The notes under the pieces are model-generated. The model was not told where the DNA came from, did no database searches, and saw nothing but the letters and a program-made list of their open reading frames with translations. A stretch of DNA of 64,000 nucleotides, taken from assembly GCF_003952365.1 (NCBI RefSeq), contig NZ_CP034443.1:5387001-5451000 (forward strand), written 5' to 3'. Position numbers and translations under genes: made by a program. Source of the stretch: Mesorhizobium sp. M9A.F.Ca.ET.002.03.1.2. Its GTDB lineage: Bacteria; Pseudomonadota; Alphaproteobacteria; Rhizobiales; Rhizobiaceae. Below are positions 23,990 to 34,045 of this stretch, in pieces (position 1 is the stretch's first letter; each line of letters begins with the position of its first letter).

Positions 23990-24065
23990 GGGTGTGTAGC
24001 TCAGTTGGTAGAGCAGCTGACTCTTAATCAGCGGGTCCACAGTTCGATCCTGTGCACACCCACCA
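23990..24065 (+). tRNA. tRNA-Lys (CTT)
   Basis: A 76-nt cloverleaf: acceptor GGGTGTG/CACACCC, D-arm AGCTCAGTTGGTAGAGC, anticodon stem GCTGA/TCAGC with loop CTCTTAA (anticodon CTT), T-arm with GTTCGATC, and an encoded CCA. Its 3' 46 nt are duplicated at 33999-34045, so it served as the integration site of the downstream element; integration left the tRNA gene complete. Confidence 0.97.
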
Positions 24066-24066
24066 T
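24020..24066 (+). repeat. attL: tRNA-side copy of the 47-bp direct repeat
   Basis: The segment ACTCTTAATCAG...CACACCCACCAT is identical to 33999-34045. It covers the anticodon loop to the CCA end of tRNA-Lys plus one base. Identity stops on both sides of the repeat, as expected for att core sites made by a tyrosine recombinase at a tRNA gene. Confidence 0.93.
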
Positions 24067-24134
24067 TCGCAACCTCAAACAGCACAAGGGTTTGCGGAAA
24101 TTCAGCGGACGGTTTTTTCGCTGAAGATTTTGGA

Positions 24135-24155
24135 CTTAGTAACGGCTTAGTAAGG
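24135..24155. promoter_or_regulatory. Putative integrase/excisionase arm sites, left
   Basis: Two direct copies, CTTAGTAA and CTTAGTAAGG, 11 bases apart, about 70 bp inside attL. The same word occurs near the right end (33855-33865 as CCTTACTAAGG, 33871 AGTAAGG, 33953 CCTTACTAA). Occurrence near both ends suggests binding sites for the integrase or the AlpA protein. Confidence 0.5.
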
Positions 24156-24344
24156 GCGGGCACGGATTTGACTCCGGACCGTTTCCTTGATCTAATTGTC
24201 GGTGAGCTTTCCAGCTCGTTCTCCAGTTCTTCAGTTCAGCCACACTGGGGCGGAAGCGCAGGTGCCAAAAGGCCTGCAGGTCCGCTGCGGTGCGTCGTGC
24301 TGCGGTCCTAGTGCTTCCGACGCACCATAAAGGATCTATGGCAC

Positions 24345-24668
24345 ATGAAGGAAACTGCACTTGAACTGATCGTTCCAGGGGAAGCCCTACGGGACGAATC
24401 AATCACCATCGAAACAAGCGATCCTGCCGCCGGTTGGCGGAGGGAGCATACGATGAGAATGGTTGATCAACTTCCTGGATGCTCCGGGGTTGTTGCTCGG
24501 GTCGATCTCGATAACGGTTTGGTGCTTTTCGTCTCCGGTTTGTATCTCATCGAGGACGAGAAGCCATCGCACCATGAGCGTCGTCTTCGGCGTATGCACC
24601 GGGAGTTCCGGGCATGGAAGCGCCGGCACGGCGTTGAGGACGTGAACTTCAACGTTTCAGTTCACTGA
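24345..24668 (+). CDS. Hypothetical protein of the integrated element
   Basis: A 107-aa ORF with AAGGA ten bases before the ATG. The N-terminal half is acidic and the C-terminal third is strongly basic (HHERRLRRMHREFRAWKRRHG), so nucleic-acid binding is possible. No family recognised. It is the first gene inside the left end and reads in the opposite direction to the packaging and replication genes. Confidence 0.5.
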   Translation: MKETALELIVPGEALRDESITIETSDPAAGWRREHTMRMVDQLPGCSGVVARVDLDNGLVLFVSGLYLIEDEKPSHHERRLRRMHREFRAWKRRHGVEDVNFNVSVH

Positions 24669-25108
24669 TCTTCAGGCACAGGCGGCCAAAGCCGCCGCTA
24701 CAGCCGCAGAGCAAGTGCGCGCTGCCCCAAGTGTGCGGGCGGCGCGTCCTCGCGCTGTACGCGGCCCCTAGTGGGAGGAATACAGCGCGACCACGGCAAT
24801 GAGGTAGGAGAGGGCAATCAGGAGGTAGGCGATCTGGAGAGAAGTCATCTTGGGCGAATCCCTTGTTGAAAGATGACCCCCTACATACTCTTCCTTCTGG
24901 CGCTGATTGCTACTTACCTGCACGCAATACACAGAGAACGGTGTCGATGCCCGCTGTTCACAGGAAACTTATTTCGTCCACAGCAGGGTTGCGTCTTGAC
25001 ACGTTTTTCCCTTGCTGGCGGCAGGCAACTGCCAGTTCGTCTACCTACACGGCGCGCTGTCTTACACCCTGTCTTCGTCCATCAAGGACGCAACAGGAGA
25101 AACCAGCA
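24669..25108. other. Gene-poor stretch with two divergent hydrophobic micro-ORFs
   Basis: No standard gene is evident. Two very short ORFs whose ATGs lie about 25 bp apart read outward: one on the minus strand (24768-24848) and one on the plus strand from 24873 with an N-terminus MTPYILFLLALIATYLHA. Both start MT plus a run of hydrophobic residues. The region could hold a divergent promoter for the wHTH gene and the left-end genes. Confidence 0.35.
24768..24848 (-). CDS. Possible 26-aa single-span membrane peptide
   Basis: ATG at 24848, TAG at 24768-24770. The peptide starts MTSLQIAYLLIALSYL and is almost wholly a transmembrane helix ending YSSH. No strong ribosome binding site. It could be a micro-protein or a toxin-like peptide, or chance. 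Reported because a similar hydrophobic start reads divergently at 24873. Confidence 0.25.
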   Translation of the reverse strand: MTSLQIAYLLIALSYLIAVVALYSSH

Positions 25109-32194: not shown

Positions 32195-32398
32195 TCATGC
32201 TACCTCACTCGTATGCTGCCGCAGATGCTGCGCGGCCCAAGCGTCGATGTCAGAGCGGCGATATTTCACAGCTTGGGGGAACTTGAGAAAGGGCGGGCCG
32301 TAGCCCTTGTGGCGTCCGATCTCAAGGAATTGGGTGGAGAACCCTAGATACTCGGCAGCCTGCTTGGTGTTCATGTATTCGCGATTGGTGTCGCTCAT
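32195..32398 (-). CDS. AlpA-type excisionase / HTH regulator
   Basis: A 67-aa MerR/AlpA-like helix-turn-helix protein: YMNTKQAAEYLGFSTQFLEIGR then PPFLKFPQAVKYRRSDIDAW, the classic excisionase pattern with wing. AlpA-type proteins bind att arms for excision and often act as satellite activators. The start at 32398 (MSDTNREY) follows GTGAGATT; an in-frame ATG at 32413 is the alternative. It lies between the integrase and the primase. Confidence 0.82.
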   Translation of the reverse strand: MSDTNREYMNTKQAAEYLGFSTQFLEIGRHKGYGPPFLKFPQAVKYRRSDIDAWAAQHLRQHTSEVA

Positions 32399-32627
32399 GG
32401 GAATCTCACTCATTGAGACGACCGTGCCTGCCTACGGTCCTTGAGTGAGCCCGGCTCCCCATCCCGTTGGGGCGTCATGAGCAGCTTTGGGCGATGGTCC
32501 CAAGTGCCAAGCGAAGTTGGGCTGTTCCTTGCGAGGGGAACTATCTGCCGGTGGTATTTTCGCTTTGCCCCGACAGACAATTTACAGCGCAAGCATACCG
32601 TTTTTTAGACGTTCGCATAGCGCTTTT

Positions 32628-33845
32628 TTACAGCGGTAGTTGCGGATAGGAGAACTTCCAGATTGCCGCCTTCAGCGCGTTGGTCACCATCTGCTGGCTG
32701 CGCTTCAAATCGTCAAAGTCGGGATGGTTGTAGCCCGCATGAGCATCGCCTGACTTTGGCAAAGCATGGTTGACGAGCAATCGGCCATGTGTCGCTGGAA
32801 TGGCGACCTTGTTCTCCGCAATTGACACAAACGTATGGCGCAGCGTGTGAGGGGTCCAATCACAGGGAAATAGCGCGACCTCCTTCTCGTTTAGCTTCGG
32901 CTCAGCTACATGGCCGATTTTGCCAGCCCTAGTCCAAGCCGGGAATACGAATTCGCAGTCGGCCCCAAACTGCGCCAGCGTACTTTCACACGCTTTGCGA
33001 GCGCGCAGAAGCGCAAGCAAAAAGTCAGACAGCGGCAGAGTGAATGGCTCGGTCTTGGTGCGGGGGAAGTGCACCAGTCCAGCTTCAAGATCGACCTGGT
33101 TCCAGCGAAGCGATGCCGACTCCTCGCGCCGTGTTCCAGTGAACAGGAACCATATATACAGATCGCGGCGAATTGGATTCTGGATTTGATGAACGCCGGT
33201 CCACCATTCGGGGAGTTGCGCATAGGGGATGACTGCCGTCCGGGCATGCTCAGGGTAGAAGTCAACATTCACTGTCGGCGGCACGTCCAGAGCAGGATAT
33301 TCCTTGCCCATTCGACGCCAGATCGCCCGCAGTGCCCTCATGGTGGCATTGGCGGCGGATTTACCGTGGTTCCCACCAATCAGATGATGGCGAGCGTTGG
33401 CGTCAGCCCGCGTGATATCGGCCATGGATCGGTCCAGCCAATCTGAGCAATAGCGTTGAAGGTCCGCCCTGTATCCAGCACCGGTTCTTGGCGACCGTTC
33501 CTTGGCGACTAGATACCGCTCGTATTTTTCGAGCGCATCGCGCAGGGTCATGTTGTTGGCGGCAGCGGCCCGTCGCTCCCCGGTGGGATCAATCCCGCCG
33601 CGCATCTGCCCCATCAACTGCTCGGCCTTCTTGCGCGCTTGATCCAGCGTAATGTCGCCATACCTGCCGATCGCCACGCGCCGGCTCTTTCCCTTCACGT
33701 CGCGCTGGACGACAAACGTCTTGCTTTTGGCCCCGACGACTACGCCGAAGCCCCTCAGGCTAGTGCACCACCAGTGCTCCTGCGCTTTTGTCGGCGGGGG
33801 TAGAGCATCAATTGCGCCCTTGGTCGTAAGCTTCGCTTTTGGCAT
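32628..33845 (-). CDS. Tyrosine-type site-specific integrase
   Basis: A 405-aa tyrosine recombinase. N-terminal DUF4102-like arm-binding domain (MPKAKLTTKGAIDALPPP, GYGDITLDQARKKA-type text IGRYGDITLDQARKKAEQL), core-binding domain, then catalytic residues: Arg in FTGTRREESASLRW, His-x-x-Arg in PHTLRHTFVS, and a late Tyr in AGYNHPDFDDL. The start at 33845 is the first sensible Met (22 residues shorter than the open frame). It lies 150 bp from attR, reading inwards, with candidate arm sites just upstream. Confidence 0.92.
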   Translation of the reverse strand: MPKAKLTTKGAIDALPPPTKAQEHWWCTSLRGFGVVVGAKSKTFVVQRDVKGKSRRVAIGRYGDITLDQARKKAEQLMGQMRGGIDPTGERRAAAANNMTLRDALEKYERYLVAKERSPRTGAGYRADLQRYCSDWLDRSMADITRADANARHHLIGGNHGKSAANATMRALRAIWRRMGKEYPALDVPPTVNVDFYPEHARTAVIPYAQLPEWWTGVHQIQNPIRRDLYIWFLFTGTRREESASLRWNQVDLEAGLVHFPRTKTEPFTLPLSDFLLALLRARKACESTLAQFGADCEFVFPAWTRAGKIGHVAEPKLNEKEVALFPCDWTPHTLRHTFVSIAENKVAIPATHGRLLVNHALPKSGDAHAGYNHPDFDDLKRSQQMVTNALKAAIWKFSYPQLPL

Positions 33846-33854
33846 TTGACCTCT

Positions 33855-33880
33855 CCTTACTAAGGTTTGTAGTAAGGGTC
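33855..33880. promoter_or_regulatory. Putative integrase/excisionase arm sites, right
   Basis: CCTTACTAAGG (33855-33865) followed by AGTAAGG (33871-33877), directly upstream of the integrase start codon; another CCTTACTAA at 33953-33961. These match CTTAGTAAGG near the left end. Binding there could couple excision control with integrase expression. Confidence 0.5.
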
Positions 33881-33998
33881 CTGTGTAAAACAGTTTAGTC
33901 TGGCCGCGCAAACTTTTTCAGCGATTTGTATAGAATTTTCAAGGGTTCTTGCGCCTTACTAAAACGGTATGGAGTGCATCTAAAAGCTAAGCGCGCAA

Positions 33999-34045
33999 AC
34001 TCTTAATCAGCGGGTCCACAGTTCGATCCTGTGCACACCCACCAT
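33999..34045 (+). repeat. attR: distal copy of the 47-bp tRNA-Lys repeat
   Basis: Identical to 24020-24066 (ACTCTTAATCAG...CCCACCAT). Only the 3' part of the tRNA is present, without the D-arm and acceptor 5' strand, so this is a remnant and not a second tRNA gene. Confidence 0.93.

Follow-up and report, generated by a model that had tools for sequence, protein, structure and literature searches.

What kind of mobile element carries both subunits of a DNA-packaging terminase and no recognizable gene for the particle to be filled? The question is raised by a 10-kb island in Mesorhizobium sp. M9A.F.Ca.ET.002.03.1.2, located in the 64,000-nt stretch that we call the window (positions 5387001-5451000 of a single-contig 6.4-Mb genome). 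A first-pass annotation had taken the island for a phage satellite at a tRNA-Lys gene, and our analysis supports this view: it is probably a phage satellite integrated in tRNA-Lys, which has its own small (TerS) and large (TerL) terminase subunits and would obtain its particles from a helper phage. The element is integrated, with an integrase and attachment repeats and without a full set of virion genes; the genes with which a satellite could redirect packaging, TerS and TerL, are present by sequence; no structural gene was recognized among the unassigned genes of the element; and relatives bounded by tRNA repeats, in a survey reaching to ~21 kb, are 9.7-18.4 kb long. Loci other than the window are referred to by L numbers.

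The only tRNA gene of the window, an intact tRNA-Lys(CTT) at 23990-24065 on the plus strand (ARAGORN), is the integration target. Its 3′ part forms the left attachment copy (24020-24066), and a second copy of the tRNA 3′ end, attR, lies at 33999-34045; the 47-bp direct repeat noticed in the first pass is exact (47/47 bases), with a spacing of 9979 and about 10 kb enclosed. The GC content per kb is 55-63% across 24001-34000, and in the 10 kb left of it 62-70%. An empty attB, which the first-pass annotation had proposed to look for, was seen by sequence as an unoccupied tRNA-Lys site in four of the five relatives fetched (L146-L149; the fifth stretch stops short of cobT). These four share the order phzF, tRNA-Lys, cobT with 0.7-1.3 kb between the tRNA and cobT, and gave no tblastn match to proteins of the window element at this site. 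The identical tRNA-Lys is occupied by a different TerL element in a sister genome (L030), and in another genome by a decayed 3-kb element of the window type (L256, 7228-10295). Separately, we noted that the block of tRNA-Lys and element (23900-34045) is inverted relative to phzF and cobT in the window; in L146-L149 the tRNA is co-oriented with phzF.

On the minus strand the element encodes, in this order, an integrase, an AlpA-like helix-turn-helix (HTH) protein, a primase-helicase, TerS, TerL and the proteins u134, u133, u239 and u174, which two short plus-strand genes face from the left. The genes originally named up to TerL were borne out by Pfam and PHROG matches together with TerS alignments. 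The tyrosine integrase (32628-33845; 405-427 amino acids (aa) depending on the start codon) matched PF13356 (Arm-DNA-bind_3), PF00589 (Phage_integrase) and phrog_1. The 72-aa AlpA-like HTH_17 protein (32195-32413), likely an excisionase or activator, matched PF12728 (E = 4.8e-7) and phrog_66 (E = 1.2e-6), and the primase-helicase (29908-32058; 716 aa, or 757 from an upstream GTG) contains RepB_primase and AAA_25 domains according to Pfam.

TerL (27516-28961, 481 aa) had no Pfam match; it matched phrog_2 (E = 2.1e-19), and the TerL profile reached the nuclease domain of the solved phage TerL 5m1f (E = 0.005). The Walker A motif GRRGGK, the Walker B motif FDE and the nuclease residues D311, D376 and D452/D453 are all present. 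Across 14 aligned TerLs including that of the window, no variation is seen at G71, R72, R73, G75 and K76 (Walker A), E174, D311, D376, D452 and D453, and almost none at D173 (Walker B); judged by these conserved residues, the window TerL is catalytically intact. TerS (28958-29311; short form of 117 aa, with an alternative start at 29371) had no significant Pfam or PHROG match, and was assigned from its 4-nt overlap with terL and from its alignment, at 18-42% identity, with 13 open reading frames (ORFs) directly upstream of TerL or TerL pieces elsewhere (best blastp match E = 1.2e-24).

Starting 8 nt after TerL are four genes on the same strand: u134 (27103-27507, 134 aa) and u133 (26702-27103, 133 aa), both with no assigned function, u239 (25981-26700, 239 aa) and u174 (25455-25979, 174 aa). 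u134 recurs after TerS or TerL in sister elements, u133 is 65% identical in L248, and homologues of u239 lie downstream of the terminase in many family members. The u239 profile matched 28 ORFs, some of them duplicates, and its all-helical model is a confident bundle (predicted local distance difference test score (pLDDT) 91) with no informative sequence or structure matches. The first-pass annotation had reported no capsid, portal, tail or lysis genes, and had named structural genes among the unassigned ORFs as what would overturn its reading. When ten window proteins were scanned with Pfam and PHROG family profiles, no significant match to a capsid, portal, tail or lysis family was obtained, so the portal, capsid, tail and lysis genes that mark a complete prophage were not recognized; below the threshold, u174 weakly matched a head scaffolding family (phrog_206, E = 0.06) and u239 a neck protein (E = 0.13). 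We consider it improbable that the element is really an autonomous small phage, or a satellite that forms its own capsids, with virion genes diverged beyond recognition. Four late genes do lack an assigned function, and among relatives L208 has a capsid gene inside its repeats while L068 and L115 have a portal gene, L115 together with a scaffold-like gene and, by eye, tail-completion-like and tape-measure-like genes. However, the largest unassigned window protein has 239 aa and a helical-bundle model, and we judged it too small for a portal and its shape unsuitable; the model of u174 is mostly one long helix, and the scan recognized neither a lysis nor a tail gene.

The block downstream of the terminase is not confined to the window. 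A u239 match was found in 10 of 146 genomes of the genus, the window's own counted, and ten regions were fetched (L248-L257). The first-pass annotation had suggested searching relatives for the gene order at other tRNA genes, and this search was fruitful: seven other apparently intact Mesorhizobium elements have the order TerS-(TerL)-u134-u133-u239-u174 and sit at tRNA-Gln (three), tRNA-Arg (two) or tRNA-Thr (two), with L253 lacking u133 and L249 having two u133-like ORFs. L250 and L256 are decayed, the u239 and u174 pieces of the latter being broken, and L257 has only a distant u239 and an integrase. The repeat spacings of the window element and its seven sisters range from 9692 to 10332 (mean 10,019, s.d. 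228, n = 8), and the size is about equal with or without the 1.4-kb terL.

The presence of terL divides these elements. L248 of M. tianshanense has a TerL (40% identity) and, like the window, a short TerS, whereas tblastn with 137 TerL queries found no TerL in the other six sisters (L249, L251-L255). The TerS proteins of these six share the N-terminal and central part and then continue for ~70 extra C-terminal residues; this tail ends with GRGxGPS...RPFHEI and a short aromatic-and-arginine end in five and with a shorter variant in L249 (the TerS start of L255 was called too far in). Four aligned TerS proteins from TerL-bearing elements end before the tail region, and among 77 TerS candidates adjoining TerL in the survey described below, none has the tail motif and two reach at least 175 aa. 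Searching a protein database with the long TerS returned 56 relatives, of which all organism-named ones are from Mesorhizobium; the first 31 are mostly 180-201 aa and the other 25 mostly 114-179 aa. From these comparisons, an own TerL and the TerS tail look like alternatives. Since the C-terminus of phage TerS contacts TerL in known phages, we infer that the tail is probably a dock for the TerL of a helper. As an observation apart, a lone HK97-type capsid ORF of 361 aa (L248, 2854-3939) lies ~3.2 kb outside the M. tianshanense satellite.

The recurrence of this block bears on whether the island is what is left of an ordinary prophage after loss of the head and tail genes, with integrase, replication and terminase retained. 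Relatives of TerL occur in full phages, and real remnants exist, such as the 3-kb L256 at a tRNA-Lys site and L250; against a remnant speak the shared compact block in eight apparently intact elements of near-constant size at four tRNA types, the 4-nt overlap of TerS, the exact 47-bp repeats and the pattern of substitution. Nonsynonymous divergence (dN, Jukes-Cantor corrected) is far below synonymous divergence (dS) in all 15 gene pairs, with dN/dS about 0.1-0.4: dN 0.055-0.132 versus dS 0.48-0.95 in four TerL pairs, none with the window; 0.036-0.109 versus 0.36-0.41 in two TerS pairs; and 0.12-0.26 versus 0.55-1.19 in nine pairs of u133, u134, u174 and u239, two with a window gene. Because the gene order recurs and dN stays well below dS, decay of the block is unlikely from the appearance of its genes, and we give the remnant explanation little credence.

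Beyond the window type, TerL-bearing elements appear from their sequences to form a large family. TerL relatives were found in 15 of 199 genomes, the window's own counted. Nine of the 17 same-genus stretches fetched contain a tRNA gene, and in all nine a 45-66-bp copy of the tRNA end brackets TerL. We also surveyed representative genomes, taking the best 80 of 256 loci encoding a TerL relative with 10-kb flanks, so that elements up to ~21 kb are visible. A tRNA-derived repeat of at least 15 bp brackets TerL in 34 of these 80 loci, and one of at least 25 bp in 25. The latter elements occupy 12 tRNA types and include two duplicates (L165 is the L019 element and L191 the L248 element); an integrase profile match lies inside 24 of the 25, the exception being L208, which was poorly covered by the gene caller used. 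Taken together, the repeat-bounded TerL elements are the nine same-genus loci and these 25, one of which is common to both. Larger complete phages at the same loci in relatives, which the first-pass annotation had named as a warning sign, were looked for, and within the survey limit the tRNA-repeat-bounded relatives remain in the size range given above. An ORF lies directly upstream of TerL in 77 of the best 80 loci and matches the TerS profile in 70 of the 77. Most of the best 80 TerL relatives come from Alphaproteobacteria; repeat-bounded elements were also seen in Gammaproteobacteria (L186, L208), in one bacterium of the Acidobacteria (L192) and in a metagenome-assembled genome (MAG) of Candidatus Binatia (L228). 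In L024 we noted two adjacent TerL elements near one tRNA-Glu (347-4925 and 5942 onward), the first with a truncated TerL.

Judging from profile matches and gene order, family members other than the window type have no more than a single virion part, or a few, downstream of TerL; in many cases these are tape-measure-like, and in one case there is a capsid protein. The 95 proteins downstream of TerL in repeat-bounded elements matched 154 PHROG families, and among the 25 families listed, 19 are tape-measure, one is tail fibre and five are unnamed. Likewise, 120 non-core proteins, six of them from the window, matched 60 PHROG families, with one virion structural family and no portal or capsid among the 25 matches listed, and ten larger ORFs of relatives scanned singly gave three tape-measure matches and no portal or capsid. 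An ORF of at least 400 aa follows TerL in 18 of the 25 elements, which measure 12.2-18.4 kb, versus 9.7-13.2 kb for the seven without it (Mann-Whitney p = 5e-5); this difference is partly produced by the extra gene itself, and L208 is among the seven although its genes are uncalled. Not all of these large ORFs are tape measures, as the 825-aa ORF of L019 and the two of L225 gave no such match. The PF04860 portal occurs in 13 of the 25 host genomes and, by position, in none of the elements, and the PF05065 capsid occurs in 18 host genomes and within one element only, L208; three positions of these families possibly coinciding with elements were checked and excluded by stops.

L208, a 9.7-kb element in a Glaciecola MAG, encodes a 440-aa integrase-like, a 784-aa primase-like and a TerS-like protein (all assigned by eye and gene order), TerL and a 377-aa HK97-type capsid protein (11518-12651), and is possibly a self-contained or Ccm-like minimal satellite. 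L068 (51%) and L115 are close in TerL sequence but have no bounding repeats, and both encode a phrog_145-type portal. L115 adds a scaffold-like protein and two products identified by eye, one tail-completion-like and one tape-measure-like (844 aa); inspection by eye showed no capsid gene there. A head-protease domain was found in L076, and L029 has an internal-virion-like and a fibre-like protein.

Several elements also carry defence-type cargo. AbiTii (L253, 7412-8320), AbiJ_NTD4 (L255, 11068-12117) and the candidate defence gene PDC-M53A (L252, 8097-9098) were found in sisters, a cargo ORF of L249 weakly matched PDC-S31, and the TerL element of L024 encodes a caspase domain (11736-13151); the scan gave nothing useful for two L254 ORFs, an L250 ORF and the window protein p107. 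Such cargo, and the absence of TerL from six of the seven window-type sisters, would suit a terminase pair that serves as a weapon, competing with or cutting helper DNA or blocking helper portals and so protecting either the host or the element. This seems a poor explanation to us, for TerL retains its ATPase and nuclease residues and shares an operon with TerS and candidate morphogenesis genes, and the commonest named matches downstream of TerL in relatives, among those listed, are tape-measure families.

Viral contigs were surveyed as well (best 80 of 131 TerL relatives). Of 21 whole viral contigs belonging to the family, two (L071 and L072) have direct terminal repeats (114 and 60 bp), and their lengths minus the repeat are 9.7 and 9.3 kb; judged by their sequences, such repeats fit circular or permuted DNA. 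Among 50,697 phage records, the best hit for the window TerL has 24% identity over 78% coverage. One further record, L231 (KX853514.1, 'Virus Rctr16k', 16.7 kb, annotated as partial), has an integrase, a replication protein, a distant TerL and a tail protein with no annotated capsid; no terminal repeat was found in it, and from its gene content it may be the same kind of satellite as the window element.

Several results weigh against the satellite interpretation. Full phages with a related TerL and a portal exist: ten proteins from nine viral contigs were scanned, and six of seven portal-sized ORFs downstream of TerL are portals. In a FastTree phylogeny of 137 TerLs, midpoint-rooted and with several weakly supported nodes, 11 portal-bearing tips (a minimum, from three simple portal models) are interspersed among the elements. 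A window-type TerL was therefore rejected as a marker of satellites. As related TerLs are found in full phages and scattered in the tree, it has probably been exchanged between phages and satellites on more than one occasion. Attachment repeats are also far from universal: none was found at 46 of the best 80 representative-genome loci, and none that is convincing at eight same-genus loci without a tRNA gene, each searched alone (L020-L024, L026, L034, L035). The repeats of L021 and L023 are only 16-17 bp, and L024 has one when read together with its neighbour L025.

No helper has come to light either, as the genome of the window has no match to the PF04860 portal, the PF05065 capsid or the PF05136 portal. 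A TerS-tail profile recovered the six satellites from 146 genomes with the next best match at E = 0.03 or worse, and the tail region had five matches in the protein database, namely the query and four Mesorhizobium proteins of 192-195 aa; the searches for the tail gave no phage protein that has it. The lack of a helper prophage of the three tested head families could suggest that the island is an integrative element moved by a gene transfer agent or by conjugation, in which TerL is passenger DNA. Gene transfer agents have HK97-type portal and capsid families, so the same negative searches equally disfavour a resident agent of this kind, and no relaxase match was found by Pfam among the ten window proteins scanned; we regard this route as very unlikely. 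According to an excerpted review, hitcher elements of this kind are present in some genomes that have no possible helper (PMC11389934).

The evidence on u174 is also mixed. Its model (pLDDT 80) begins with an N-terminal piece and short strands, continues with a helix of 47 residues and closes with a small domain at the C-terminus. The best match among viral structures (BFVD) is an unnamed protein (E = 6.9e-4), and hhalign against one five-member scaffold-like family gave a probability of 0.1, that is, no match; this family comprises L115 and four phage proteins, and the gene that follows carries a capsid or coat annotation in PS-1, Ssp-JY42 and 611R4 and none in CGphi29. Searches with u174 by tblastn in the phage records found nothing, by sequence in the PDB an unrelated best hit (E = 0.047), and by Foldseek in the PDB no match below E = 0.001. 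GP20-type proteins act as scaffolds, and because BFVD places 'minor structural protein GP20' at ranks 3, 6 and 14 and, at rank 35, a capsid scaffolding protein, with TM-scores that are low throughout, we retain as a weak lead from the model that u174 may be a scaffold-type protein, a candidate internal scaffold or capsid-size factor.

If the island is a satellite, the families of its proteins suggest how it would act. The integrase and the AlpA-like protein would excise the element, the primase-helicase would replicate it, and TerS would select its DNA, which its own TerL would then drive into the procapsids through the portals of the helper phage. In the TerL-less sisters, the long-tailed TerS probably docks on the helper TerL, and an own motor and the TerS tail would be two solutions to one step. 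The u134-u133-u239-u174 block may adapt or resize the helper head. Head size would be controlled by u174 or by genes next to it, with u174 as the leading candidate for a scaffold-like size factor; such a factor would account for a length that stays close to 10 kb.

The remaining features of the element are less informative. The 596-bp gap between primase and terS on the minus strand (29312-29907), possibly an origin or packaging site, contains a perfect hairpin, CCCCCC-TAAA-GGGGGG (29805-29820). Similar hairpins occur in only 9 of 142 upstream regions, the window counted, and the hairpin was rejected as a conserved packaging-site feature; no k-mer of 9, 10 or 12 is common to more than four of the eight upstream regions compared (window and sister elements). 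A 101-aa HTH protein (25109-25414, plus strand), convergent to the late operon, matched PF08279 under the cut-off (E = 5.7e-4) and a CARF3 model in its HTH part (4.4e-5), and an ORF similar in size and, by eye, N-terminus adjoins u174 in L248, L249, L251 and L253. p107 (24345-24668, plus strand, 107 aa) has an 80% identical copy in the decayed L250 and no useful family match, and a doubtful 54-aa ORF (24768-24932, minus strand) has no family match.

How does this element compare with known satellites? P4-like satellites have no terminase of their own and carry Psu/Delta/Sid-type genes, while the window has TerL, and no Psu/Delta/Sid-type Pfam match was found among the window ORFs scanned. As far as excerpts of the cited papers go, here and below, the window element resembles P4-like satellites and phi-AH14b in its integrase, AlpA, primase and presumed need for the particles of a helper (PMC4936722); for P4, the helper terminase packages the DNA at cos sites (PMC10690885), and phi-AH14b is reported without terminase genes (PMC4936722), in contrast to the TerS and TerL found here. 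Phage-inducible chromosomal islands (PICIs), such as TerS-type Staphylococcus aureus pathogenicity islands (SaPIs), are similar in integrase, AlpA-like regulator, primase, redirecting TerS and size. They take TerL from the helper (PMC10690885), a pattern seen in the six TerL-less sisters and not in the window, L248 and the wider family, which carry TerL; this comparison is by gene content. Capsid-forming PICIs (cfPICIs) carry TerS and TerL and obtain the rest from the helper, but their own genes include those for capsid, protease, portal and connectors, and it is tails that they borrow (PMC10690885). No head genes of this type were recognized in the window beside the terminase pair, and the element would therefore borrow both heads and tails; among the 25 repeat-bounded relatives, a PF05065 capsid lies inside one (L208) and a PF04860 portal inside none.

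Mulch and Flayer of Streptomyces likewise have their own small and large terminase; they differ from the window element in having terminal repeats and genes for portal, capsid, scaffold and adapter (PMC10690885). The 224 putative satellites of E. coli lie mostly next to tRNAs with att repeats and have tape-measure proteins without most tail genes; they have capsid genes and are described, in the text excerpted, without terminase genes (PMC10448857), a mirror image of the family of the window. The PICMI, with a reduced gene set described as lacking capsid remodelling genes, is moved via a DNA packaging motif alone (PMC10803314, PMC11389934), whereas the window has its own TerS and TerL. The VEIMEs and tycheposons, which integrate into genomes of marine bacteria and have been put forward as families of satellites, may include related forms and are compared here by mention alone (PMC11389934). 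In SaPIbov5 a single homologue of a capsid protein, Ccm, is what redirects capsids (PMC8569155), a precedent for a single plugged-in virion part such as the capsid protein of L208.

More tentatively, and with somewhat less than even confidence, we propose that these elements belong to a widespread satellite class built on a TerS(-TerL) core, in which TerL and the TerS tail are interchangeable cassettes, the one supplying a motor and the other a dock for the motor of the helper, and one or a few plugged-in virion parts (the u134-u133-u239-u174 block or a tape measure, capsid protein, head protease or portal) each redirect a different step of helper assembly. Such elements may explain some small islands now labelled as prophage remnants. 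We found no description of head-less TerS-TerL satellites in the literature searched, whose coverage is incomplete and leaves key satellite papers outside. The satellites in the literature surveyed either use the large terminase of the helper or bring the head as well. If an element has the terminase pair alone, the TerL of a satellite has to fit a foreign portal, and control of packaging specificity can be gained without a capsid; the matched sisters with and without TerL, equal in size and gene order, would provide a natural experiment on the choice of motor by satellites.

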